Shown here in pieces: positions 1,558 through 40,478 of a stretch of 64,000 bases of DNA (positions are counted from its first letter, which is position 1; each line of letters starts with the position of its first letter). A model generated the notes under the pieces. That model made no database searches. It was not told the origin of the DNA and was given only the letters and a program-made list of their open reading frames with translations. This DNA is from Agrobacterium vitis. Lineage in GTDB: Bacteria > Pseudomonadota > Alphaproteobacteria > Rhizobiales > Rhizobiaceae. The stretch lies in contig NZ_CP146242.1 of assembly GCF_037039395.1 (NCBI RefSeq), positions 3,297,001 through 3,361,000 of the forward strand, in the 5' to 3' direction. The position numbers and the translations under genes were made by a program.

Positions 1558-1635
<78 letters not shown>

Positions 1636-1684
1636 TTTCAATAATTTAGCAGATTTTTGCGACCAATTTGCGCCGGTTATGCGA

Positions 1685-2942: not shown

Positions 2943-3163
2943 TTGCTCTCCCCCTCATGCAGAGTATTGTTTGCCTGTGTAGCGAGCGTTTCGGCATATT
3001 CTCTATCCGTAAATACGGCGCCGTTGGCAGGCTGACCGGTCAACTTTTCGAATAGCCTTCCGGTGACATTCAGGACGCCATGACGCTGATCAGCAACAAA
3101 CCAGAATGGCCATTCGTCTGTCCTGTCGCTGGCAGAGCGGGCGTAATACCGATTGTCGTTCAC
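2939..3163 (-). CDS. Hypothetical small protein following integrase
   Basis: 74 residues, GTG start at 3163 overlapping the integrase stop by GTGA. No recognised domain; contains WPFWFVADQRHGVL. It ends in HEGESK, exactly like the integrase, because the coding end doubles as the ribosome-binding and coupling sequence for the next gene. Function unknown. Confidence 0.6.
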   Translation of the reverse strand: MNDNRYYARSASDRTDEWPFWFVADQRHGVLNVTGRLFEKLTGQPANGAVFTDREYAETLATQANNTLHEGESK

Positions 3164-4347
3164 TTGCTCTCTCCCTCATGCCAGCGAACCATTTTCGCCA
3201 TGGCATTGTCGGCCTGTTCTTCCGTCATGGCATTGTAGTGCTTCATAACTTCGTGAATTGTTTGATAGCTATGGCCTGTGATGCTACAAATTTCCTGGGG
3301 GGTGCATCCCGCATTGCTGAGCCAAGTTACAGCTGTATCGCGTAAATCCTGATCGCGCAGGGTTTTGAGGCTCGGCATGGACTTGGTTGCGTGGCGGCGA
3401 AGATCTTCAAATAGATGCCGGTAATAATCCGGTTTGAAAGGCTGCCAGCGTCTTTCATCTAGTATGACATAGGGAGAAATGATGCCGGCCTCCTTGCGGC
3501 GCTGCACGGCGGCATCGAGACGGTTCTTGATGGCTTCGGCTTCTGGCATTGACACTAATGCATTTGTCTTGCTTTGCTTTAGTTTGATCCGTCCGGCTTC
3601 CCGCCCAGCAAAGGTAAACTCCAGTCGATCGTTTTGTCGTTGGCCGGACCATACGGCCAACGTAATCATATCGCCAAGCTCCGGTCTGCCGATGGCGTCG
3701 GCAACATTGACCAAATGGACAATCTCGGCTTTCGTTGCTGCGCGCACACGCGGCGGCGGGGTTTTCATTTTCAACTTATGGGCCGGATTGATCAGCATGG
3801 AGGGCAGGTGGCCGCGATCCATGCCCCATTGCAGGGCGATGCCCAGCACGCGCAGCACGGCATGGGCGGTGTGCAGCCCGCATTCGCTGCGCAGCTTGTC
3901 ATAGAGGCCCAGGCAGATCTGTTTGCTCAACGCCTCGGCCGCCGAATACCAGATATCCGGTGCGCGCTTTTCGATGACGCCGATCTTCTGGCGGTAGTCC
4001 CTGATGGTATTGGGCTGGCGGTCGGCCATGTCGGGGTTTCTGGCGGTGTTCAGCCAGTTTTCCAGAAGGGTTTCCAGCGTGAGGCCGCGCCGCGCTGGAG
4101 CGGCTTCTGTGGCGGCGCGCGGACGGCCCGGCTTTTTGCGGCGGTTCTGGCGGGCTTCCTCCTCCAGCTGGCGCGCAAAGCTTTGCGACCAGGCGTGGCA
4201 TTCGGCTTCTTTCAGCCAGTTGCCCGCCTCGTCTTTCAGATCCTGCCCGGCATGGCCGCGCGCGCGCAACGTCTCCGATGGATTGAAACGCGGACGGCCA
4301 TTGCGCCAAGCGACATAGCGGATTTTCGGGGTGGATGGTTTTACCAT
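3160..4347 (-). CDS. int: Phage integrase (tyrosine recombinase)
   Basis: 395 residues from ATG 4347. N-terminal AT-hook-like basic tract (RRKKPGRPRA), then a core-binding domain (TIRDYRQKIGVIEKRAPDIW) and the catalytic domain: Arg in SGQRQNDRLEF near residue 237, second Arg in DLRDTAVTWL near 334, GHS box, and the nucleophile Tyr in VMKHYNAM near 370. The His usual three residues before the second Arg is Gln here. It should catalyse recombination between attP and tRNA-Lys attB. Located 1.5 kb from attL, within the leftward operon. Confidence 0.93.
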   Translation of the reverse strand: MVKPSTPKIRYVAWRNGRPRFNPSETLRARGHAGQDLKDEAGNWLKEAECHAWSQSFARQLEEEARQNRRKKPGRPRAATEAAPARRGLTLETLLENWLNTARNPDMADRQPNTIRDYRQKIGVIEKRAPDIWYSAAEALSKQICLGLYDKLRSECGLHTAHAVLRVLGIALQWGMDRGHLPSMLINPAHKLKMKTPPPRVRAATKAEIVHLVNVADAIGRPELGDMITLAVWSGQRQNDRLEFTFAGREAGRIKLKQSKTNALVSMPEAEAIKNRLDAAVQRRKEAGIISPYVILDERRWQPFKPDYYRHLFEDLRRHATKSMPSLKTLRDQDLRDTAVTWLSNAGCTPQEICSITGHSYQTIHEVMKHYNAMTEEQADNAMAKMVRWHEGESK

Positions 4348-4349
4348 GA

Positions 4350-4859
4350 CTAGATCCGAAAGATTTCGTGGTTGATGCTGTAGACCGATCCGGGCGCGAT
4401 GCTGCTGCCGCCGGTCGAGACGATCCAGCCGTCTCTCCAATGGGAGAAGATGAAGCTGGCTTCCTTTTTGCCGCATTCGGCCTTTGTGGCGCGGAGGCGG
4501 TCGCCGGGTTTCAGGAGAGGGCGCAAGGCTTCCTTGGCCAAGAGATTTCGTAGATTATTCTCGGCGGCATTCTGTCCGAACTTGTGGAAGCTATCCCACC
4601 GTGCGGCATGCTCTCGGCTTGTTTCCGGCTTGTGGGCGGCGGCGAAGGCCAGCCACTCCATGGCGATGGCCTGTTCTGCCTGTTCGCGTGTGGCGCTGAC
4701 GCATAGGAGTTTGCCGTCGATGATGCTGTGCACCGTGAACAAGCCCCAGTTGTCTTCGCCAATTTGATGTCCGGTGAAGTGAATTTTAGGGTCGAGAATG
4801 CGCGCGGTGAGGCGGCCCGTTCTGCTGATTTCGATTTCGGCTTTGATGGTGGTGGTCAT
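4350..4859 (-). CDS. Hypothetical prophage protein upstream of integrase
   Basis: 169 residues from ATG 4859 (MTTTIKAEIEIS). An in-frame upstream extension exists but lacks a good start. Beta-rich N-terminal half (DNWGLFTVHSIIDGKLLCVSAT) and a short charged middle; the C-terminal part SFIFSHWRDGWIVSTGGSSI resembles a small beta domain. No family recognised. The integrase ATG follows two bases after its stop, so the two are translated together. Confidence 0.65.
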   Translation of the reverse strand: MTTTIKAEIEISRTGRLTARILDPKIHFTGHQIGEDNWGLFTVHSIIDGKLLCVSATREQAEQAIAMEWLAFAAAHKPETSREHAARWDSFHKFGQNAAENNLRNLLAKEALRPLLKPGDRLRATKAECGKKEASFIFSHWRDGWIVSTGGSSIAPGSVYSINHEIFRI

Positions 4860-7569: not shown

Positions 7570-8181
7570 TCAGTTGCGGGTGCGAAACCCGCCGATCACA
7601 ACGCCCGCAATGGCGACGTTTTCGTCATCAACGATTTCCGGGGCGGTCGGTTCGCCAGCGGCGGATGCTGAGAGGAGATAGGGGTTTCTCCAGACGCGAA
7701 ATATTGTCTCGGCGGTTCCTCGGCGCAGGTCGTATTTTTGGGCGCAAACGGCGTCGCCATTGCGCGGCTGGGCCTCGCGGTCGATGATGACGATCATGCC
7801 TGGAAGGTAGCCAAGGGCGGAAAGGGCGTTTGTTTTCAACACCCATGCATCCATGGTCGGGGTCTGCTTCACCAGGCTGTCGATAGCGACGTTGACCACG
7901 TCATCCTTGTCCGCGCCGATGCTGTAGCGCGCGGCTTCATTCTCGGAGAAAAACTGGATCTTCGGAATGTTCTTGGTCTCATACGCGGGGATGTGTGTGG
8001 CATCCTCAATCTTGCGAACCGTCTTGGCGGTGAGCGTATGTCCCATGGCGTCGTTTTGCCGAAACCGGGTGAGTGTCGATGGCGTAAGGCCAGCGGCGCG
8101 CGCGATTTCAGTCAGCGACATCTTCGCCGTCTGGGTGATGTGGTCGAGCCACGCTAGTTGCTGATCGCGCAAATCTGTCAT
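7570..8181 (-). CDS. CI-like phage repressor with degenerate S24 domain
   Basis: 203 residues from ATG 8181 (MTDLRDQQLAWLDH); in-frame ATG at 8187 and 8211 are alternatives. N-terminal helix-turn-helix: SLTEIARAAGLTPSTLTRFR, with residue TAKTVRKIEDA following. The C-terminal half resembles the LexA/CI S24 fold (YLPGMIVIIDREAQPRNGDAVCA), but the position of the autoproteolysis Ser appears to be Ala (TNALSALGY). It should maintain lysogeny by binding operators on both sides of its gene. Confidence 0.8.
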   Translation of the reverse strand: MTDLRDQQLAWLDHITQTAKMSLTEIARAAGLTPSTLTRFRQNDAMGHTLTAKTVRKIEDATHIPAYETKNIPKIQFFSENEAARYSIGADKDDVVNVAIDSLVKQTPTMDAWVLKTNALSALGYLPGMIVIIDREAQPRNGDAVCAQKYDLRRGTAETIFRVWRNPYLLSASAAGEPTAPEIVDDENVAIAGVVIGGFRTRN

Positions 8182-8237
8182 GCGCATACTTAAAGCAACG
8201 TGAAGGCCCATGTTCAAAACTCAAAACTGCTATTGAC

Positions 8238-11225: not shown

Positions 11226-11437
11226 TGACTGATGATTGGGATCTGTGTCGCAACCGTTCCGCCGCCATGTCTGCCGCCATGGCCGTACCACTTGAAGTTA
11301 ACCAGGCGCTGGCTGTGATTATCCTTTGGAATAGCGGCTTTTTCGATACGCTCGATATCGCCCGCATGCTGACGCTGAAAGAAGATGCAGTATATCGGAC
11401 CATTCATGCTGCCCGTGATGTGAGGGCCGGTCGATGA
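11225..11437 (+). CDS. Small helix-turn-helix protein
   Basis: 70 residues from ATG 11225 (TGATG overlap). FDTLDIARMLTLKEDAVYRT is a sigma-like helix-turn-helix. ATGA overlap with the primase. Probably DNA-binding; role unknown. Confidence 0.6.
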   Translation: MTDDWDLCRNRSAAMSAAMAVPLEVNQALAVIILWNSGFFDTLDIARMLTLKEDAVYRTIHAARDVRAGR

Positions 11438-12555
11438 ACTCCCGCAACAAAGAAACCGAGCAAATCAAGGAAGGCCTGAAAGGCCGGATTGTCGGGCTTT
11501 GCGAGGGTCTGTTGCCGGATGGCAAGCGACATGGGCGGCTCTGGGTGGCCCACAATCCGATTGAAAATGACTATTCCCAGACCCCGGAATTCAAGGTGGC
11601 GTTAACGCGGGATGTTGGTGCGTGGAAGGATTATCGCACCGGTGAAAAGGGCGATGTGATCGGGTTGATCGCCTATCTGAACGCCACAGATTTTCGTGGG
11701 GCGATGGACTGGGCGCGCGATTTCCTTGGGCTGCGACAGATGAGCCGGGAAGAGCGTGACCGCTTTGCCCGCGATACGCAAAAGGCCATGGCGGATGCGG
11801 CGCGGATCTCGGAGGAAAAGCGTCTCCAGCGGATCAAATGGGCCGATGATCTGTTCATGAGCGCGGATGCCTATGGCAGCGGCACGGCGGCGGAAGCCCA
11901 TGCGCTGGCCTATTTCGCGGGCCGGAAAATTCCGCTCGATGACATTCCCAATCTGGCCGCCGACACCTTCCGGTTTCATCCGAGCCTCGAATTCTGGCCT
12001 CGGGCGACCTATCGCAATGAGGGCGGCCGTTCGGTGAAGGTGAAGGCCGGGCCGCGCTTTCCCTGCATTCTATCCGCCATGCGCACGCCCACAGGGCAGG
12101 TGACGGGCGTGCATCACACGTTCCTCGATCCGGTGCGCCCGGAAAAGCTGCCGGTGGCGGCCAACGAAAACGCCAAGATGATGCGGTTTGAATGCGCGGG
12201 CGCGATGATCTGGGTAAGCCATGGGCCGGAAAACCTTCCGGTCTGGGAAGCCCGCCAGCCGCATCCGGCGATCTTTGGCGAGGGGATAGAGGACGCCCTT
12301 TCCCAAGCCCGCGCCAATGGCGACATGGCCCGCGCCGCCGCTGTCGGCTCGCTCTCGATGCTGTCAGGCGCGCCGCTCAAACTGCCCTGCATAGAGTGGG
12401 CCTTGATCTGCCAGGACAATGACTGGGCCAAGCCCCAGGCGCAGAAGCAATTTGCCGATGAAATGGCAAAGCTGGAAAGCTTTGGCAAACCCGTGGTGGC
12501 GAAGAAAAGCCATATCGGCAAGGATTTCAACGATTTGATGCAAGGAGAAGAGTGA
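11434..12555 (+). CDS. Phage DNA primase with Toprim domain
   Basis: 373 residues. N-terminal region with GAWKDYRTGEKGDVIGLIAY, typical of phage primase/DUF7146-type proteins that lack a classical CHC2 zinc finger. Toprim core: IFGEGIEDALSQARANG near residue 279 with the conserved Glu, and ALICQDND near 323 giving the acidic pair. It should synthesise primers for phage replication together with the helicase at 14420. ATG 11434 overlaps the previous stop. Confidence 0.8.
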   Translation: MNSRNKETEQIKEGLKGRIVGLCEGLLPDGKRHGRLWVAHNPIENDYSQTPEFKVALTRDVGAWKDYRTGEKGDVIGLIAYLNATDFRGAMDWARDFLGLRQMSREERDRFARDTQKAMADAARISEEKRLQRIKWADDLFMSADAYGSGTAAEAHALAYFAGRKIPLDDIPNLAADTFRFHPSLEFWPRATYRNEGGRSVKVKAGPRFPCILSAMRTPTGQVTGVHHTFLDPVRPEKLPVAANENAKMMRFECAGAMIWVSHGPENLPVWEARQPHPAIFGEGIEDALSQARANGDMARAAAVGSLSMLSGAPLKLPCIEWALICQDNDWAKPQAQKQFADEMAKLESFGKPVVAKKSHIGKDFNDLMQGEE

Positions 12556-12896
12556 TGGGTGAGCGCCCGGAAAACATGAAGCAGCAACTGAAAGTAGAAG
12601 TTAAAGACGGGATTTTGTCAATTTCTATTGGCATCGCTCTCCTCTCTCATGCTGTCCAGTCACAAGAGAGCTGGCCGGAGAACTTCTATGTCGACGACAT
12701 TCGTGATTTCGCGCGGGAAGTCGCGAGAGAGTTGCGCCGGGAAGAGGAAGACGGCACGACGCCTGTCCATCGTCTCTTTGACAAGGTTGCCGATGCTGTC
12801 TTGGAAAGTGGTGGCGACGGTGTCGACGAAGGAAATGTGGAACGTGGCCTTGAGATCGCCGCTGCGTATTTCAATCGGAAAACTTCGAAGTCATGA
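12555..12896 (+). CDS. Hypothetical prophage protein
   Basis: 113 residues from ATG 12555 (TGATG), SD-like GGAGAAG just before. Acidic protein with [20 protein letters not shown] in the middle. No domain recognised. Overlaps the GapR homologue by ATGA. Confidence 0.6.
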
Positions 12897-13180
12897 CCGG
12901 CGCTGGCCACAATTCCGGCACTGATGCCCATGGCATTGCCCGTGACCAGCTGCGCGCCTTTGTCGAGCGGATCGAGCGGCTCGATAGAGAGATCAAATCC
13001 ATCAACGACGACAAGAAGGATGTGTACGGCGAAGCCAAATCCATGGGCTTCGACACCAAAATCCTGAAACGGGTGATCCATCTGCGGCGAAAGGATGAGC
13101 AAGAGAGGCTCGAGGAAGATCTGATCCTCGACACCTATCTGCACGCCCTCGGCATGATCGAGGAACCGCCGGAAGGCTAA
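12893..13180 (+). CDS. gapR: GapR family (DUF2312) DNA-binding protein
   Basis: 95 residues. [60 protein letters not shown] and DTYLHALGM follow the alphaproteobacterial GapR/DUF2312 family throughout. In Caulobacter, GapR binds overtwisted DNA and supports replication and topoisomerase activity; a phage copy among replication genes may serve the phage origin or interfere with host chromosome biology. That role is inference. Coupled to the previous gene by ATGA. Confidence 0.88.
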
Positions 13181-13199: not shown

Positions 13200-14087
13200 A
13201 TGGCGAAGGAAAAAACACCGGAAGAGCTGGCCGCATTGGCGGGGGCGATTGGAAAGGATGAGGACAATGGAACACCCACTGGAAACGAAACGCCGGCGAA
13301 TGCAGGCGGAGCAAGCGATACGGGAGCAAGTGGCGAACAATCTGCGGGCGAAACAGGGTCTGCCGCACCACAGGAAGCAGGCGGTGACATCGACGGTTCC
13401 AGCGGGGCAGACGCCGGAGGCAATGACGGATCGGCTGCTGGACGCGATAGCGGAGGCGAGGGCGCAACAGCTGTGGGACGTAAAGGGCTGGTTTCCGAGG
13501 GGGAAGCCAATGCAGGATCAGGTGGAACCGCTGGCGATCAACGCCACGATCAGGGATCAAGTCCTGATGTTGGAAGTTCAGGCGAGCTTGGAAAACCAAA
13601 TACGGCAGGCAATGCTTCTGCCGACGAACTTGCTGCGCAGATGAGCTACAGCGAATTCGCGGCACTGGAGCCGGAGGCCATGCCGATGATTGCGGCAGCC
13701 GGGGCCTACCAGGCGCTGATTGCTGTCGGCCAGGCGGTTGCCGCAAAGCTTGCCGGGGCTGAGCTGACATGCGGCCCGCATCCGGCCAGCACCTTAATGG
13801 CGCGGGAAATGGCCGGTTTCGTGCGCAAGATCGGTCGGCGCGCTACCGCCGATGTGCTGGCCCAACATCTGAAAATCCGCAAGCTGCGCGACAGTGCCGA
13901 GATTTCCACGCCCGAGCGGATCGCCCTGACGGCCTATATCCAGACCCTGCTTGATCTGGACGCCTTCATTGCTGCCGAGCGGGAAGCGCAGGCCAAGGCG
14001 CAGGAAGAGCGGCAAACGCCCGCGCCGACCCCGATTGAAGACACGATTTTTGAACCGGCGGATGACTTTTTTACGCCGACTTACTGA
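13200..14087 (+). CDS. Prophage protein with low-complexity N-terminus over a nested gene
   Basis: 295 residues from ATG 13200, preceded by CAGGAGA eight bases upstream. Residues 1-22 look ordinary; residues about 23-147 are Gly/Ala/Ser/Asp-rich and disordered-looking; residues 148-295 are a compact helical domain (MSYSEFAALEPEAMPMIAAA onwards). The low-complexity part coincides exactly with a second frame (13267-13644) that looks better coded. ATG 13641 is in frame here and overlaps the stop of that nested gene by ATGA, so a 148-residue short form is likely. Function unknown. Confidence 0.55.
   Translation: MAKEKTPEELAALAGAIGKDEDNGTPTGNETPANAGGASDTGASGEQSAGETGSAAPQEAGGDIDGSSGADAGGNDGSAAGRDSGGEGATAVGRKGLVSEGEANAGSGGTAGDQRHDQGSSPDVGSSGELGKPNTAGNASADELAAQMSYSEFAALEPEAMPMIAAAGAYQALIAVGQAVAAKLAGAELTCGPHPASTLMAREMAGFVRKIGRRATADVLAQHLKIRKLRDSAEISTPERIALTAYIQTLLDLDAFIAAEREAQAKAQEERQTPAPTPIEDTIFEPADDFFTPTY
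13267..13644 (+). CDS. Nested gene in +1 frame (overprinted)
   Basis: 125 residues from ATG 13267 (MEHPLETKRRRMQAEQAIRE), preceded by AAAGGATGAGG. The product is a normal-looking charged helical protein (EAMTDRLLDAIAEARAQQLW, DVKGWFPRGKP). Its codons end mostly in G or C, as in neighbouring genes, whereas the overlapping long frame uses many GGA, GCA and ACA codons here. Its stop overlaps ATG 13641 by ATGA, the junction used throughout this operon. Function unknown. Confidence 0.6.
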   Translation: MEHPLETKRRRMQAEQAIREQVANNLRAKQGLPHHRKQAVTSTVPAGQTPEAMTDRLLDAIAEARAQQLWDVKGWFPRGKPMQDQVEPLAINATIRDQVLMLEVQASLENQIRQAMLLPTNLLRR

Positions 14088-14112
14088 CCTCACCCCAAGC
14101 GAACAGGAGACT

Positions 14113-14349
14113 ATGAGCATGACGGACAAAGTTGACAGCACAAGCGACCAGCGCACCGTAAACAATACGATGCGACACCAGTACAAGGTTCTTTCCGACA
14201 AGGAAAAGGAACAGATGGCAGCAATCAAATCCTGCGGGGAAGAATTGCTGAGCATCATCAATGAGTGCGGTGCAAGCCGCGAACTGTCCATCGCCAAGAC
14301 CAAAACCGAAGAAGCGGTTATGTGGGCAGTGAAACACGTCACGGCCTAA
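14113..14349 (+). CDS. Acb2/Tad1-like cyclic-nucleotide sponge (anti-CBASS/anti-Thoeris candidate)
   Basis: 78 residues from ATG 14113, with AGGAG four bases before. The pattern HQYKVLSDKEKEQMAAIKSC, GEELLSIINECGASRELSIA, KTKTEEAVMWAVKHVTA matches phage proteins I know as the Acb2/Tad1 hairpin family (former DUF7681). Founding members bind signalling nucleotides made by CBASS or Thoeris and block defence. No enzymatic residues are expected. It is the last gene before a strong terminator, at the end of the early operon. Which defence it blocks, and whether it is active, cannot be read from sequence. Confidence 0.7.
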   Translation: MSMTDKVDSTSDQRTVNNTMRHQYKVLSDKEKEQMAAIKSCGEELLSIINECGASRELSIAKTKTEEAVMWAVKHVTA

Positions 14350-14359
14350 AACCCATGCC

Positions 14360-14392
14360 CGGCGCGCTAGAGATCCGGCGCGCCGTTTTTTT
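14360..14392 (+). terminator. Intrinsic terminator of rightward early operon
   Basis: CGGCGCGC (14360-14367) pairs with GCGCGCCG (14378-14385), followed by seven T. It lies just after the Acb2-like gene and before the helicase gene. Confidence 0.85.
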
Positions 14393-14419: not shown

Positions 14420-16294
14420 ATGACCAAGAAACCAAAATTGCAGGGTGGCGTTGCCGGTGCCAGGGCGCATTTTCTCGATGCGCTGGAAGAGGTGGGGGAA
14501 GGCCGGGATATTATCGACCCGGACAAGAACCTTGCCCGCGATGGCATTCGTCCCGGCCAGTGGCCCGGCGCGCCGCATGATGCCATGCCGCCAAAATGCC
14601 CCGTTACGGTACTGGGGATGAAAGGCGAGGTGGTCTATTGCGTCGGCGCGACCGGCGGCTTGCACGAAATCAGCCGGTTCGATTATCCAACGCTGCTAAA
14701 GCTGTTTTCGCCCTACATCAATTATCTGCACTGGGCCTGGCCTGCGTTCGGCAAGGCGGAAGCCGACCCGGAAACCGGGGAGGCGTTGCCGCCGAAGGTG
14801 AAGCGTGTCGAGCGCGACAAGGCTTGGGAAGCTATTATCAGCGAGGCGGGCCGTCGCGGTATCTTCGATCCGCAGGACAATGTGCGCGGTCGGGGCGGCT
14901 GGAAGGATGGAGAACAATTCATCTGGCATTCCGGCCGCCATATCTGGACGGTGCAAACCAAGCAGAAAGACGGCAAGACCGCCGACTGGAATTTGCAGCG
15001 CGCCCCGACCGGCGAATATGGCGGCATGTATTACCGCCAGGACAGTGATATTCTCCAGCCGTGGAAAAGCCCGATTGGCTGGCGCGATAGCCCGGCGCAT
15101 CAGCTGTTGCAGGATTTCGGCACATGGAACTGGCATCGGCCCAGCCTCGATCCGCTGTTTTTGTTGGGCTGGATTGGTTCGTCGCTGATGGGGGCGGCGC
15201 TGAAAACCCGGCCGATCATCTTTATCACCGGCGGACGCGGCACGGGTAAATCCACTCTGCACGATATCATCAAGGCGATTTTCGGTCAGACGCTCTATGC
15301 CACGGCCAACACCACAGCCGCCGGTATCTATCAAAATCTCGGCCAGGACAGCCGCCCGGTAGCGATCGACGAATTCGAGGCCAAGGCCAGCGGCTTTAAG
15401 GAACAGGCGATTATCGAACTGGCGCGCCAGGCCTATTCCGGTGCAAAGCTCTATCGCGGTGGCGCGAACCATGAAGGTGTTGAATTCGAGCTGCGCTCGG
15501 CCTTCATGTTCTCGGCCATCATGCATCCGCCGCTTGCCGTGCAGGACAAGAGCCGCATGGCGATTTTGCAGCTCAAGACGCTGGAAAATGACGGCAAGGG
15601 CGAACCTGTGGTGTCCGATGTGGCCGGGCGGATGCTGCTGCGGCAGATCATGGACGGCTGGCACGATTTTGACATGCATGTGCTGCCCCGCTGGCGTCGG
15701 CTGCTGCATGAGGCTGGTTTCGATGCACGCCAGATCGATACCTATGGCACGCTGCTGGCGACGGCCGAGCTGCTGGTGGGTGAACAAGGCATGATCGATA
15801 TCGGCTTTCCGGCCGACGATCCCGAACACGCCATCGACCTGCTGAAACAGGCGACCGCCATCGAGCGATCCGAACAGACGGAAAAGTGGCAGGATGTGAT
15901 TGGTCATGTCTTGGAGAGCAGCCCAGAGCTTTGGAGAGGCGGTGAAAAAAATTCAGTTCACGACTGGATTTGCGATGCCAAGCAAGGAGTTGATAAATTA
16001 AGTAATGTCAGAAAAGCATTGGGTAATGTTGGCCTGGGGATCACTCAACCTGGCAAACCGTTTGATGGTTTTGGAATAGCCGTTCCCGTGCGCGATAATC
16101 GTCTTTCGAGGATATTTGAGGGCACAGACTATCAAAGTGGCGGCTGGAACCAAGCGCTCAGGCAAGCACCTGATTATCTAGTGACAAAAGACACGCCGAT
16201 GGTGCGGGTCGGAAACGAACCAAAGCGATGCATCGTTTTTGATTTCGATGCGTATGAAGCTTTTGTAACGGGCAGTTCTAGCGTGCTGGATTGA
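14420..16294 (+). CDS. Phage replicative helicase/primase-type ATPase
   Basis: 624 residues. Walker A GGRGTGKST near residue 270, preceded by PIIFITGGRG, and an acidic IDEFEAKASG Walker-B-like segment at about 315, followed by a sensor-like SAFMFSAIMHPPL. This layout is that of phage DNA-dependent ATPases in the primase-helicase class. The last 130 residues (from about 490) are different in composition, with more A/T-ending codons, suggesting recent exchange of the C-terminal part. Start ATG 14420 has only a weak GGGGCAG behind it. Confidence 0.75.
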   Translation: MTKKPKLQGGVAGARAHFLDALEEVGEGRDIIDPDKNLARDGIRPGQWPGAPHDAMPPKCPVTVLGMKGEVVYCVGATGGLHEISRFDYPTLLKLFSPYINYLHWAWPAFGKAEADPETGEALPPKVKRVERDKAWEAIISEAGRRGIFDPQDNVRGRGGWKDGEQFIWHSGRHIWTVQTKQKDGKTADWNLQRAPTGEYGGMYYRQDSDILQPWKSPIGWRDSPAHQLLQDFGTWNWHRPSLDPLFLLGWIGSSLMGAALKTRPIIFITGGRGTGKSTLHDIIKAIFGQTLYATANTTAAGIYQNLGQDSRPVAIDEFEAKASGFKEQAIIELARQAYSGAKLYRGGANHEGVEFELRSAFMFSAIMHPPLAVQDKSRMAILQLKTLENDGKGEPVVSDVAGRMLLRQIMDGWHDFDMHVLPRWRRLLHEAGFDARQIDTYGTLLATAELLVGEQGMIDIGFPADDPEHAIDLLKQATAIERSEQTEKWQDVIGHVLESSPELWRGGEKNSVHDWICDAKQGVDKLSNVRKALGNVGLGITQPGKPFDGFGIAVPVRDNRLSRIFEGTDYQSGGWNQALRQAPDYLVTKDTPMVRVGNEPKRCIVFDFDAYEAFVTGSSSVLD

Positions 16295-20713: not shown

Positions 20714-20804
20714 CAGCAAGATCCTTGCGACCCGGCGCACGCCGCGTGGCCGCAGGCTGTTCGAAGATGGCGGCTCGACCGGTGCCACGGCGGTTCTGTC
20801 CTGA
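20598..20804 (+). CDS. Small conserved morphogenesis protein
   Basis: 68 residues from ATG 20598, preceded by GCGGGAAGC. Polar sequence KGLFGGKQDDTAKKSQQLQQ and a basic TRRTPRGRRLFEDG, typical of short proteins before portal genes. It overlaps the end of the GNAT-like gene by 116 bases and its stop overlaps the portal ATG. Function unknown. Confidence 0.65.
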   Translation: MTNAVKGLFGGKQDDTAKKSQQLQQVANDRQLQSLNTSDSKILATRRTPRGRRLFEDGGSTGATAVLS

Positions 20805-22405
20805 TGGCGGCCTTTGATCTGAAATCCGTTATCCGGCGCAAGGATAAAATCTGGGGCCAGCGGGCGCCCTGGACGTCGATTTATCAGGAAGCCTATGATT
20901 TTGCCGTGCCGATGCGCCGCCCTGGTGGCGCTGGTAAGCTGAAATACGCTGACAAATTGTTCGATATGACCGCGCCGATGTCGGCCATGTATTTCGCGGG
21001 CAACCTACAGCGCAGCTTGTTTCCGGCGGGTCAGCCTGCCTTTGTGCTCGAAACCGGGCCACTGGCGGCCATGAAGCTTTCCGCCCCGGATCGTAAGCAG
21101 CTCGACCGCATCCTTTACGAGACCTCGACCCTGATCCATCCGTTTTTTCTGGCGGGTGACTGGGATACGGCGGTTCATGAAATGTGCGTCGATCTTTCGG
21201 TGGGAACCGGTGCCATTCTGCCAGTGAAGGGAACGCCCGACAAGCCGGTGATGTTCTGCGCCATTCCGTTCGACCAGTTGGCGATTGGTGTCGATGCCTT
21301 TGGCCGGGTGAATTACGTCAGCTGGAAACAGCAGATCGAATACGAGCAGCTGGTGGGCGCGTTCCCGGATGGGGATTTCCCTGACGATGTGAGGGAAAAG
21401 GCGAAATCCAACGCTTCCGATGAGACGACGCTCTATCAGGATTTCTACGCTGACAGCCTGCCCGGCGGCGGCTGGCATTTCGTCGCCTATGTCGACAAGA
21501 GCGCCGTGCCGATCCGGCATGAACGCTATCGCACCCAGCCGATTGCCGTGCCGCGCTACTATCGTGTGCCAGGTGAAGCTTATGGCCGGGGCGTGATCCT
21601 GACGGCGTTGCCGACCATCAAAACGCTGAACAAGGTGCAGGAACTGGCGCTGAAAACAGCGGCGATTTCGATGCTGGGTATCTGGGCTTACCGGTCGGGC
21701 GGGACGTTTAATCCCAACAATGTGCGAATGGGGCCTGGTGAATTCTGGGCGATGCAATCGACCGGCGGCATGATGGGGCCGGATGTTTCGCGGCTGGATA
21801 CGCCCGGCAACATGAATGTGGCGAATGTGCTGGTGGGCGATCTGCAAAGCCAGATCAAGCAGGCCACGTTTGATAACCGCCTGCCGGAATATCAAGGCAC
21901 GCCGCGTTCTGCCTCGGAAATGACCGGGCGGATGCAGCAAGGGGCAAACATCCATATCGGTGCCTTCGGGCGGCTGGTGAATGAGATCATGCCTGTGATC
22001 GTGCCGCGTGTGGCGGAAATTCTCTCCGGGTTCGGCATTCTGCCGATGGTTGCCAATGTGGACGATCTGCTGATTGCGATCTCGGTGCGCTCGCCCATGA
22101 AGGCGGCCCTGAATGCTGACCGGCTGAATGCCATCGCCAATTACCATGATCTCGTGGCGAATTTCGTCGGGCCGGAAAAGGCGCGGCTCTATGAGAACAT
22201 GGACAAAATCATGGAGCGGATCGGTGAAGGATTGCAGATCGACAAGGATTTGATCCCCGATGAGGACCAGAAAAAGAAGATCGCAGATGAAATCAACAAG
22301 GAACGGCAACAGCAAATGGCTGCAATGTTTGCGCAGGAAGCCGCCAAGCAGGCCCCTAAAGTGCTTGGGGATGCGGCGGCGCAGGATATGAGGGCAGCAG
22401 CATGA
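20804..22405 (+). CDS. Portal protein (podovirus head-to-tail connector)
   Basis: 533 residues. N-terminal WTSIYQEAYDFAVPMRRPGG and KLFDMTAPMSAMYFAGNLQR plus SLFPAGQPAF are the signature of the podovirus head-to-tail connecting protein family; later RYYRVPGEAYGRGVILTALP and QSTGGMMGPDV fit as well. Forms the dodecameric channel for DNA packaging and ejection. ATG overlaps the previous stop; the next gene overlaps by ATGA. Confidence 0.92.
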   Translation: MAAFDLKSVIRRKDKIWGQRAPWTSIYQEAYDFAVPMRRPGGAGKLKYADKLFDMTAPMSAMYFAGNLQRSLFPAGQPAFVLETGPLAAMKLSAPDRKQLDRILYETSTLIHPFFLAGDWDTAVHEMCVDLSVGTGAILPVKGTPDKPVMFCAIPFDQLAIGVDAFGRVNYVSWKQQIEYEQLVGAFPDGDFPDDVREKAKSNASDETTLYQDFYADSLPGGGWHFVAYVDKSAVPIRHERYRTQPIAVPRYYRVPGEAYGRGVILTALPTIKTLNKVQELALKTAAISMLGIWAYRSGGTFNPNNVRMGPGEFWAMQSTGGMMGPDVSRLDTPGNMNVANVLVGDLQSQIKQATFDNRLPEYQGTPRSASEMTGRMQQGANIHIGAFGRLVNEIMPVIVPRVAEILSGFGILPMVANVDDLLIAISVRSPMKAALNADRLNAIANYHDLVANFVGPEKARLYENMDKIMERIGEGLQIDKDLIPDEDQKKKIADEINKERQQQMAAMFAQEAAKQAPKVLGDAAAQDMRAAA

Positions 22406-28048: not shown

Positions 28049-28635
28049 TGGTGACAGCAGCGCTTTCCGCATTGGGCGGGCTTTTTGGTAGCGGGACGGC
28101 TGCGGCTGGCACGGCTGGAGCGGTTGGCAGTGCTGTCGGCACGGCGGGTACTGTTGGTGGAACCGTTGGGGCTGTCTCCAGTGGTCTTTCCATCAGCTCG
28201 ATTTTGCAGGGGACGGCGGGCGTGCTGAGCGCCGTCTCAGCAGTTTCCGCCGGGAATGCGCAGGCGGAAGGCTATGAGCAAGCGGCCACGGAAGCGCAAT
28301 CAAACCAGCGGCTCACGACGCTGGAAGGGATATCGCGGCGAAGTTCGATCAAGCAGGCGATGGTGGATCAGGTCGGGCAACAGGACGTGGCCTATGCCGC
28401 CTCTGGAACCGATCTTTCTTTCGGAACGCCGACACAAGCCCGCAAGGAAGCCTTCCGGGAAGCCGATCTTGGCACGGCCACGCAGGTGGGAACCGAACAG
28501 ACGACACAAGCGCAGCTGTCCGACCGTGAGAAGTCCTATCGCAAAATGGCCGGAAAGGCCCGCCTCGGCGGTTGGGTCAGTGCCGCTACCAGCCTGTTCA
28601 GCACCGGTTCCAGCATCAAAGCCCGAGGATATTGA
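28048..28635 (+). CDS. Internal virion protein (gp14-like)
   Basis: 195 residues: a Gly/Ala-rich hydrophobic N-terminal half capable of membrane insertion (GTAGTVGGTVGAVSSGLSIS) and a polar helical C-terminal half (QRLTTLEGISRRSSIKQAMV). This composition and place match T7 gp14-type ejection proteins that form a pore in the outer membrane. Confidence 0.7.
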   Translation: MVTAALSALGGLFGSGTAAAGTAGAVGSAVGTAGTVGGTVGAVSSGLSISSILQGTAGVLSAVSAVSAGNAQAEGYEQAATEAQSNQRLTTLEGISRRSSIKQAMVDQVGQQDVAYAASGTDLSFGTPTQARKEAFREADLGTATQVGTEQTTQAQLSDREKSYRKMAGKARLGGWVSAATSLFSTGSSIKARGY

Positions 28636-28637
28636 CC

Positions 28638-31418
28638 ATGGCGAACAGATTGCCCCAGCCGGTTGGATACCGGCCTTTTCGTGTGCAGCCGATTTTGCAG
28701 GAAGGGGTGCTGCCCAGTCCGCGCGATGACGGTGAGCTGGAGCGCAAAGTGGCGGCTGGCCTTGCCCGGATGGCCGATGAATTTGGACAACAGGCGGACC
28801 GGCAAGCTGTGGCGGCCGGGCAAAAGGCGGGTGAAGCGGATGCGAAGGCGGGTGCGCCGGGTGCTTCGACGGTAACGGGTGATGCGGTTGCGCCTGCACA
28901 ATCAGGAACCCGCATTGCCGTTGCACCGGAAAATATTCGCGGTGTGATCTCGGAGGCGGCAACCCGGCATGGGGTCGATCCGAACGCGTTGATGCAAATC
29001 GCATCTGTTGAAAGCGGGTTCGATCCGAACGCGAAAAACCCGAATTCTTCAGCGGGTGGCCTGTTTCAATTTATCGATGGGACGGCCAAGCAATACGGCC
29101 TTGCCGATCGGTTCGACCCGGCACAAGCTGCCGATGCAGCCGCACGGCTGGCGAAGGACAATTCCGCCGCGCTGAAATCGGCGCTTGGCCGCGATCCGAC
29201 TGCGGGCGAGCTTTACCTTGCCCATCAACAGGGCGCGCAAGGGGCTATCAAGCTGCTTTCCAATCCTTCAGCCCGTGCCGCCGATGTGGTGGGTGGCGAG
29301 GCCGTGTCCCTGAATGGCGGCGCGGACGGCATGACGGCTGGCGAATTTGCGGCCAAGTGGACGAGCAAGTTCGGATCAGGCTCCTACAAGTCCATCCCCT
29401 CCGCTTCGTCCGTTGCGCCTGTTTCCGTGACGCCTGCCGCACCGGTGAAAATCGAGCCGGGCAAGGCCGGAACATTCCGGCCCATGGAGGGCGATACGCT
29501 CTATGCGCGGGCTTATAATGTTGCTGGGGAGAAAACCTATATCCAGCAACTCGAATTGACGTTGTTGCAGGATCAGGACGCCGTGTATGACAAATACAAG
29601 GATGATCCTGCCATGCTGCAAAAGGCTTACGGCGAGCTGTTGCAGGCGCATAAGCAGGAGCATCTTTTCCCTGAAATCGAAGCGGATTACACGGCGGCTT
29701 ACAACAAACGGGCCTATGGCCTTGTGCGCCAGGCGCAGGATGCGCAGCAGACGCGGATCAAGCAGCAGGACCGGGGCGACTTTCTCGGGCGCGTTGGAAC
29801 GCTTGAGGATACCAAATCGCGGGCTATGGCCGGTATCGATTTCAAGAGCGATAGCGCGCCGGCGCGGCTGGCGGATTTGCAGGCGACAATTGACGATCAT
29901 TACGACACGGCGGTGGCAAAAGGGGTGATTTCCGCCCCTGATGCGGAGCGGGCGAAGCGCGCCAGCCGTGGCGATATGATGGTGACGTTTTACACCAAGC
30001 AAGCCCAAACCTTGCCTGCCGACGATATCGCTTCCATGCGCAAAAGCATGACGGCCGATTACAGCGCCGGAAAGCTGGACGGTGTTGACGCCGATAGCTG
30101 GGACAAGATCGACGCCGGGATGATAGCCGCCGAGCGGGCGCGGCGAACGCAGGATGAAAAGGCCGACAAGGACCTGACAAAGCGGGGTGAAGACTTCGCC
30201 AGCCGGATTGCGCGGGGCATGCCGGTTTCGCCTGATGAATTCGCGCGGTTCCAGCTGGATGCGGCGACCGCGCCGAAAGGCTCGGAAATCGTCGGATCGA
30301 CGCTGACCCGCATGAAGGTTTCCGACGCGATCCGCACCTTGCCGATTGCGGAGGTGGAAAAACGGCTTCCGTCGCTGCTGGGTGAAAAGGCTACGGCGGA
30401 TGATCGTGATTTTTCCCGCAAGCTGATCGAAAGCCATCGCAAGGAATTGCAGACCGATCCGATTGGTGTTGCCGAGCGCTTCGGGATCTTGCCGCCTTCG
30501 GCTGGATTGCCCATCGATGGCGATGCAGATCCATCCACGGTTTCCGGCGCATTTTCCGAACGGATCAATCAGGCGGAAGCCGTGGCCCGGCATTTTGGCG
30601 TGCAACCGAAATATTTCCGGCCCGGCGAAATCGATCAGATTGAAAAGACCGTGACGACAGACCCGGAACGTGGCGTTTCGATTGCTGCCGGGCTGGTGGA
30701 TGCTGCCGGACGCAATGCCCCGCAGGTGTTGCGCGAACTGGGGCAGGATGCGCCAGCTGTTTCCGGCGCCGGGGAAATCATGGCGCTGGGCGGTAATGTC
30801 AAGGCGGCGCGTGATTTGCTGGCGGGATATGGCAAGACGCCTGACGGCAAGGCCTATCCTGACATGAAGGTGACGGCGCGGGTGCCGCAGGCACAAAAGA
30901 TCGCCGGTGGCGCGCTGGTGTTTTCGCCCGATCAGGTCAACAGCCTAGACGCTCAGGCCGCCGCCATTGCCCGCAAGCGTCTGTATGATGCTGGTATCGA
31001 CCCGAAAACGCCGGATGCCAAGCCGATTTATGAGCGGGCCTTTCAGGAAGCGGCGGGCGCAAGCTTTGCCGGATCGGTGCAATATGGCGGGTTTGCCGGA
31101 TATGACCGGGGGATGTTCTACCGGGAAAAGCAGGTTCTGGTGCCGCCGACCGTGCGGGCGGATCGGTTCGGTACTGTGATCGAAGCGATTTCCGACGCGG
31201 ATCTTGGCGGCGTCAAGGCCAAGAACGGGCGCGCCTGGACGGCGGCGGATTTCCAGAAGGCCATGCCGGTTGCCGTGGACGGCGGCTATGTGTTTGCGCT
31301 CGGTGATCCGGCCTCGTCCACACCACTGTTTATTGCTGGCGAAGATGGCAAGCCGATCCTGCTTGATCTCGGCAATATGGACGCCCTGAAAAAGCGGGTG
31401 CCGGAGGCGTTCAAATGA
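28638..31418 (+). CDS. Internal virion protein with lytic transglycosylase domain
   Basis: 926 residues from ATG 28638. A soluble lytic transglycosylase domain lies near residues 97-190: GVISEAATRHGVDPNALMQI, ASVESGFDPNA (catalytic Glu near 124), SSAGGLFQFIDGTAKQYG. It should open the peptidoglycan during DNA ejection. The long C-terminal part is helical and structural. Overlaps the next gene by ATGA. Confidence 0.85.
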   Translation: MANRLPQPVGYRPFRVQPILQEGVLPSPRDDGELERKVAAGLARMADEFGQQADRQAVAAGQKAGEADAKAGAPGASTVTGDAVAPAQSGTRIAVAPENIRGVISEAATRHGVDPNALMQIASVESGFDPNAKNPNSSAGGLFQFIDGTAKQYGLADRFDPAQAADAAARLAKDNSAALKSALGRDPTAGELYLAHQQGAQGAIKLLSNPSARAADVVGGEAVSLNGGADGMTAGEFAAKWTSKFGSGSYKSIPSASSVAPVSVTPAAPVKIEPGKAGTFRPMEGDTLYARAYNVAGEKTYIQQLELTLLQDQDAVYDKYKDDPAMLQKAYGELLQAHKQEHLFPEIEADYTAAYNKRAYGLVRQAQDAQQTRIKQQDRGDFLGRVGTLEDTKSRAMAGIDFKSDSAPARLADLQATIDDHYDTAVAKGVISAPDAERAKRASRGDMMVTFYTKQAQTLPADDIASMRKSMTADYSAGKLDGVDADSWDKIDAGMIAAERARRTQDEKADKDLTKRGEDFASRIARGMPVSPDEFARFQLDAATAPKGSEIVGSTLTRMKVSDAIRTLPIAEVEKRLPSLLGEKATADDRDFSRKLIESHRKELQTDPIGVAERFGILPPSAGLPIDGDADPSTVSGAFSERINQAEAVARHFGVQPKYFRPGEIDQIEKTVTTDPERGVSIAAGLVDAAGRNAPQVLRELGQDAPAVSGAGEIMALGGNVKAARDLLAGYGKTPDGKAYPDMKVTARVPQAQKIAGGALVFSPDQVNSLDAQAAAIARKRLYDAGIDPKTPDAKPIYERAFQEAAGASFAGSVQYGGFAGYDRGMFYREKQVLVPPTVRADRFGTVIEAISDADLGGVKAKNGRAWTAADFQKAMPVAVDGGYVFALGDPASSTPLFIAGEDGKPILLDLGNMDALKKRVPEAFK

Positions 31419-40170: not shown

Positions 40171-40218
40171 ACTCTTAATCAGCGGGTCGTAGGTTCGAAC
40201 CCTACATCACCCACCATT
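40171..40218. repeat. attR core (tRNA-Lys 3' half)
   Basis: 48 bases identical to 1588-1635: anticodon loop to just past CCA. It lacks the 5' half of the tRNA, so it is a remnant, not a gene. Right of it the next 260 bases (to 40478) hold no gene; they belong to the host and would follow tRNA-Lys directly in an unlysogenised strain. Confidence 0.95.
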
Positions 40219-40478
40219 CTTTTTATTGAAGTTCAAAATGAACTCATTTGCCTCGGATATCCAGGCAATTCTCCAGGTGTAGAGTTTGTCAAACGACATC
40301 TGGCGGACGCAGTTAAACTCATCCAGACGATTTTTTTCAAAATAAAACTATGATCCGCTTATGTTCTCACATGGCGATTTGTTTTCTCGTTATGTTCGCA
40401 TTTATTCCTCATATTCATCCAAAAATAGCTGTGGATTCCTGTGGATAACTTTTGTCTGGAACTGCTCGTTCCGGCTGA

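Follow-up and report, generated by a model that had tools for sequence, protein, structure and literature searches.

Within a 64,000-nucleotide stretch of Agrobacterium vitis DNA (contig NZ_CP146242.1, positions 3,297,001 to 3,361,000; here called the window), a short open frame at 14113-14349 on the forward strand lies inside a prophage, just ahead of a primase-like gene, and had originally been predicted to encode a cyclic-nucleotide sponge of the Acb2/Tad1 type. We conclude with high confidence that this gene encodes an Acb2-type cyclic-oligonucleotide sponge, and that the slot before the primase is a position where phages of this clade swap sponge families. The sponge reading is supported independently because Tad2, Tad1 and Acb4 swap at the same locus.

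A predicted Acb2-type hairpin protein

The window protein was assigned to a single Pfam family, PF24729 (Acb2_Tad1_hairpin), with 67.9 bits against a cut-off of 27, the alignment running from residue 24 to 77 of the protein and from position 2 to 57 of the 58 in the profile. The original prediction had staked its family call on such a profile match, and the call therefore stands. The motif pattern that it had read in the 78-residue product is also present, as SRELSIAKTKTEEAVMWAVKH, except that the segment given as LAKTK is in fact IAKTK. The protein further matched PHROG 1454 (function unknown) at 1.5e-7, it was the only PF24729 match in the host genome, and PADLOC returned no match for it. 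Of the 2025 candidates of the database search, 2022 reached E <= 1e-3; the frame is thus real and not a chance open reading frame.

Two in-frame ATG codons, at 14113 and 14119, lie 3 nt and 9 nt behind an AGGAG, respectively. In an alignment of 204 sequences (the window protein included, and some members being domain pieces without their start), position 1 is occupied in 13, and methionine is found at position 3 in 118 of the 119 that have a letter there. The start at 14119, yielding 76 residues, is thus likelier than that at 14113, since its AGGAG is better spaced and most relatives with a visible start begin there.

The structure model has helices at residues 12-15, 29-52 and 56-77 and no strand; the mean predicted local distance difference test score (pLDDT) is 82, and residues 1-20 are near or under 50. 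The helical hairpin that had been anticipated was therefore modelled, with the architecture of Acb2, in which two long antiparallel helices follow a short N-terminal element and no separate N-terminal beta domain is present (PMC12043709, PMC10419184). The best PDB fold matches of the model were T4 Vs.4 and Acb2, and most of the top viral fold matches carry the name Acb2/Tad1 hairpin; for a short helical hairpin, Foldseek and VIA-align are too weak to carry the case alone.

At the putative ligand site, the profile pairs Y24 and K39 of the window protein with Y11 and K26 of the solved Acb2 chain 8h2j_A, and their spacing of 15 residues equals that of Y8 and K23, two contacts of T4 Vs.4 to cyclic GMP-AMP (PMC10097602). 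K74 aligns to Vs.4 R79, a basic residue being present at both, and T63 aligns to T68. Among the 204 aligned sequences, Y24 is kept in 204, K39 in 203, T63 in 200 and K74 in 204, so that the tyrosine, lysine and basic contacts of Acb2 (Y8, K23 and R79 in Vs.4) are present and near-invariant in the relatives. In the Acb2 of a Pseudomonas phage, we take the residues with such roles to be Y11, K26 and R67. Two other Vs.4 contacts, H11 and F82, are not kept (L27 and T77 by position); they were not used as diagnostic, as the Pseudomonas phage Acb2 chain also has a leucine at the H11 position. Identity of the window protein to Acb2 and Vs.4 is 18-32% in structural alignments. It also differs from them by a longer N-terminus with a nearly invariant D-x-R-T-x-N-N-x-x-R-H-x-Y: ahead of the Pfam domain (14119-14190), D12, R14, T15, N17, N18, R21 and H22 are kept in more than 90% of the aligned sequences, and most of this conserved stretch was modelled at low confidence.

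Exchange of sponge-family genes at the slot before the primase

The closest relative found, L090, was also the sole locus found with the primase as single query. It is 96.9% identical to the window over 511 bp up to 14121 and 96.7% identical over 1559 bp from 14344. In place of acb2 it has a 173-residue gene, with the ribosome-binding site, ATGAGCATG, and the stop-codon region in common, and the exchange spans start codon to stop codon. The replacing gene is Tad2-like: it matches PF11195 with 90 bits against a cut-off of 25 and PDB entry 8kbi at E 7.4e-19, and all 24 Foldseek PDB matches of its model at E <= 1e-3 belong to the Tad2 family. The same arrangement was found in G057, a genome of the host's genus. 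Like the window protein, Tad2 (PF11195) and Acb4 (PF13876) are assigned to nucleotide-signal sponges, in their case by published work, and they sit in the same slot in sister phages.

Unlike the window protein, Tad2 of this clade (L090:4408-4929) is extended at its N-terminus by about 75 conserved residues. This extension was modelled confidently as an alpha/beta domain, and comparison of the whole model with the PDB listed Tad2 chains only. The extension and the Acb4 of L235 both match PHROG 9467, so that elsewhere this domain seems to occur as a fusion with Acb4.

Nine related pairs of loci with different occupants were examined (Table 1), and all six pairings of the four sponge families were found exchanged among them. 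The upstream blocks of identity end 299 to 653 nt before the primase, and therefore gene-precise exchange is shown for the pair formed by the window and L090 only.

Table 1. Related loci with different slot occupants, and identity of their flanking blocks
Pair	Upstream (%)	Downstream (%)
window Acb2 / L090 Tad2	96.9	96.7
L233 Tad2 / L235 Acb4	94.1	94.9
L233 Tad2 / L234 Acb2	89.4	92.3
L234 Acb2 / L235 Acb4	87.8	92.4
L231 Tad2 / L266 Tad1	89.6	90.3
L229 Tad1 / L231 Tad2	79.4	88.3
L227 Acb2 / L304 Acb4	85.8	93.9
L229 Tad1 / L234 Acb2	82.8	87.7
L229 Tad1 / L235 Acb4	86.1	86.3

To avoid picking loci by their sponge, relatives were gathered with a primase profile of 11 members, five of which had first come from Acb2 searches. 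A viral scan contributed its best 80 of 90 loci and a genome scan at least 18, which gave 98 loci, L090 being already in the set; addition of the window and of 14 genome regions (13 found by primase, L212 by Tad2) brought them to 113, and 98 remained once 15, including L212, had been taken out at 97% identity. Identity was measured to the window primase, and the slot was defined as the 750 bp before the primase. Where the primase is at least 50% identical, a sponge-family gene lies in the slot at 18 of 27 non-redundant loci (Acb2 in seven, Tad2 in six, Tad1 in three and Acb4 in three, one locus having two), and a sponge is found anywhere in the locus in 21 of 27. Without the window and the four loci first reached by sponge searches, the slot sponge persists in 13 of 22. 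At 40-50% primase identity, the slot count was 0/29 (anywhere, 9/29) and below 40% it was 2/42 (anywhere, 9/42), so that below 50% the slot is used in 2 of 71 loci. All together, the 27 loci comprise about 394 genes; 19 of their sponge genes lie within a slot and 4 outside it. Assuming two to four slot genes per locus, the enrichment has p values of 1e-14 to 2e-8 for the 27 loci and 4e-10 to 6e-6 for the subset of 22, which overstate independence since the loci are related. Several Acb2-bearing relatives were found through Acb2 itself; hence, no ancestral occupant can be named.

Labels of the slot genes rest on profiles built from the window, L090, L229 and L235, and were also checked in Pfam or the PDB for Tad2 of L090 and L238, for Acb4 of L235, L225 and L304, and for Tad1 of L229. 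Acb4 of L235 matches PF13876, the Acb4 family (PMC11722364), with 111 bits against a cut-off of 27, and PDB entry 9e4w at E 1.6e-5. Tad1 of L229 matches 8y6v (gp184) at E 7.2e-20 and 7uav at E 9.5e-17 over residues 31-149, and scores 22.5 bits against PF24729, under the cut-off of 27; the genes of L266 and L305 are also below that cut-off and group with L229. Some occupants are unclassified: the slot genes of L228 (94 residues) and L237 (90 residues) have no Pfam or PHROG match, and that of L242 (136 residues) matches DUF2158. For the slot gene of L236, a relative carried by L238 shares with the window protein a match to PHROG 1454 (here at 9.9e-6) and scores only 12.7 bits against PF24729.

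Tandem arrangements were also seen. L048:4860-5779 (on the same contig as L138 and L241) has Acb2 and Tad2 in tandem in the slot, and its sister L017/L251, in which flank blocks close by are 90-92% identical, has only Acb2. In another phage group, L180:4986-5761 and L191 differ, between 97% identical flanks, by one additional Acb2-like gene that immediately follows Tad2. In general, Acb2 and Tad2 are rarely found near each other: Tad2 occurs in 2 of 80 Acb2 viral loci and Acb2 in 2 of 80 Tad2 loci, with one contig common to both.

Rival readings, host signals and significance

A Tad1-like sponge, with gcADPR (a glycocyclic ADP-ribose) as main ligand and Thoeris as target, would share the hairpin half of the fold; the name of PF24729 covers both families, Tad1 chains were weakly matched in the profile search (E 0.3), and Thoeris-type markers are present in the genus. 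We nevertheless hold this reading to be very improbable. Tad1 has an N-terminal beta domain, and its gcADPR pocket is made of conserved loops outside the hairpin (PMC12043709), whereas the window protein has about 23 residues before the hairpin, modelled at low confidence and without a strand. Moreover, L229 has a true Tad1 in the slot, which is longer and matches solved Tad1 chains at E 7e-20 to 1e-16, and relatives of it are found in L266 and L305. As modelled, the window protein is Acb2-type and not Tad1-type because nothing confidently folded precedes its hairpin, and cyclic di- or trinucleotides would be likelier ligands than gcADPR because the N-terminal sheet of Tad1 is absent.

The protein might instead have kept the hairpin domain and no longer be a sponge, for example as a small DNA-replication accessory that stands before the primase by chance. 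Its gene does lie between GapR-like and primase genes, the nearly invariant D12, R14, N17, N18, R21 and H22 are without a role in the literature consulted, and few members of PF24729 have, to our knowledge, been tested. We give this possibility very little credence. The slots of relatives hold Tad2 and Acb4, which have no detectable sequence relation to the window protein, as well as Tad1, which has the hairpin in common; and five of the 27 loci lack a small slot gene in their open reading frame lists (in L224, L230, L246 and L127 the acidic protein is followed directly by the primase, and in L126 an Acb2 gene lies farther upstream), so the primase does not need one. It is also improbable that the slot simply admits small accessory genes of any kind, the excess of sponges being a sampling accident of related phages. 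The loci are indeed related and their counts are not independent, the slot genes of L228, L237 and L242 have no sponge match, and unclassified small genes stand beside the sponge in, e.g., L225, L227 and L305; however, four families at one position and the enrichment of sponge genes in both locus sets argue against an accident.

The gene very probably encodes a functional Acb2-type sponge, expressed with the early genes. Studied members of the PF24729 family bind cyclic nucleotides (PMC12043709, PMC10419184, PMC10097602), and we infer that the window protein would also do so, that its ligands would be cyclic di- and/or trinucleotides, and that the swapping would follow host signalling. During lytic growth, the sponge would be expressed along with the early genes, assemble as a hexamer and bind cyclic di- and/or trinucleotides from CBASS-like enzymes of the host (CBASS, cyclic-oligonucleotide-based antiphage signalling system); with the signal bound, the host effectors would stay off. 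Phages of the clade would swap sponge families at the slot, presumably following the signals of the hosts they meet. We further propose, tentatively, that the clade may keep a dedicated, recombination-accessible sponge socket before the primase, that the unclassified occupants in L228, L237 and L242 may be new sponges, and that the near-invariant N-terminal motif may be an added ligand contact.

The original prediction had also expected CBASS or Thoeris defence in relatives of the host. Marker domains alone were searched, across 63 genomes that represent the genus and include the host: SMODS was found in 13 (12 over the cut-off), ThsB_TIR in 6, STALD in 1, SAVED in 5 and mCpol in 0. The expectation holds for a minority, SMODS or ThsB_TIR being present in 17 of the 63 (any of the five markers in 19), and it does not extend to the host genome, where none of these CBASS, Thoeris or Panoptes markers was detected. 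PF24729 occurs in 5 of the 63 genomes and Tad2 in 1; in three of these five, and for the one Tad2, the gene lies in the module before this primase. The host has one TIR_2 protein of 591 residues (L223:910-2685; host genome C2 near 3,071,732), which is not a ThsB_TIR match, has a weak PADLOC match and adjoins a 342-residue open reading frame that looks transposase-like by eye. In L125 (G005:C4), a divergent PF24729 match (60.4 bits) lies about 80 kb from SMODS and SAVED genes on the same contig.

The slot has been entered by all four sponge families, Acb2, Tad1, Tad2 and Acb4, that PMC11722364 names. In phage anti-defence islands, too, counter-defence genes cluster in variable regions, as anti-CBASS genes do (PMC11722364); here, in contrast, four sponge families use a single fixed position that mostly holds one gene, and in the closest pair the boundaries of the exchange are precise to the gene. 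No description of a shared slot for these sponge families was found in titles and abstract starts of open-licence PubMed Central articles. On its own, the protein adds one to a large family that is already known; more can be learned from the locus, since its natural swap pairs could tell which host signals select which sponge, and the slot position supports the function of untested family members and may guide the search for undiscovered sponges. Panoptes is triggered by phage sponges (PMC12657218, PMC12657230), and swapping sponge families may be one escape from it.

Prophage setting and the hairpin before the primase

The prophage, 38.6 kb long, podovirus-like and inserted in tRNA-Lys, is known here from its genes alone. 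Its identification as a podovirus prophage, already part of the original prediction, is borne out by 51-nt attachment repeats, 98% identical, of which the left one is at the tRNA-Lys, by an integrase and by podovirus-like connector, head, tail and internal-virion PHROGs (Table 2). When 12.8 kb of the prophage were compared with 50,697 phage records in a megablast-type search, no match was obtained. A rhizobial host is supported. The three named-host genome loci with at least 50% primase identity are all from Rhizobium.

Table 2. Features of the window discussed in the text
Feature	Position	Strand	Evidence or remark
attachment repeat, left	1588..1638	+	overlaps 3' end of tRNA-Lys (1558-1633)
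tyrosine integrase	3160..4476	-	phrog_1 E 3.7e-25; PF00589
CI-like repressor	7570..8217	-	phrog_4 E 1.5e-6; HTH_26 over cut-off, Peptidase_S24 just under
toprim primase, early module	11434..12555	+	phrog_510 E 2e-22; PF13362 27.8 bits, cut-off 27.2
GapR-like DNA-binding protein, early module	12893..13180	+	PF10073 105.4 bits
low-complexity acidic protein, 5' side of slot	13200..14087	+	no family match
ribosome-binding site AGGAG	14105..14109	+	common to L090, the relative with Tad2
acb2-type gene, 76 residues	14119..14349	+	PF24729 67.9 bits; start by AGGAG spacing and relatives
segment replaced by Tad2 gene in L090	14122..14343	+	flanks ~97% identical
GC hairpin, then seven T	14360..14392	+	stem kept with some compensatory changes in relatives, T run in few
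primase/helicase-like gene, 3' side of slot	14420..16294	+	phrog_35358 DNA primase E 2.4e-35; best match phrog_21086 (unknown) E 2.4e-50
head-tail connector, podovirus type	20804..22405	+	phrog_332 E 8.3e-61
transglycosylase-containing protein resembling internal virion proteins	28572..31418	+	phrog_4067 E 1.6e-30; phrog_342 E 3e-15
attachment repeat, right	40171..40221	+	

The early module runs in the order toprim primase, GapR-like gene, acidic protein, acb2, hairpin with its T run, and primase-like gene. The gene had been described as the last of an early operon before a strong terminator. A hairpin with seven T does follow it, but the primase-like gene starts on the same strand 70 bp on, so that a place of acb2 at the end of the operon is not shown. 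The GC hairpin itself (14360-14385) is kept in 26 aligned loci, where 92% of cells are paired and three of the seven stem pairs show changes on both sides. It may have a role other than transcription termination, because the z-scores of individual sequences are modest (-0.5 to -3.2) and at least five T in a row occur in 4 of 27 loci only. In all nine swap pairs, the downstream block starts 56 to 77 nt before the primase, which keeps the hairpin region and the primase together.

Gene content also varies at a second position, between the toprim primase and the GapR-like gene (window 12552-12896; L090:2727-3290). This position holds an unknown 114-residue gene in the window and a dATP/dGTP pyrophosphohydrolase (PF04447, 114 bits) in L090, and in G309 and G316 a sponge stands there instead, Acb2 and Tad2, respectively.
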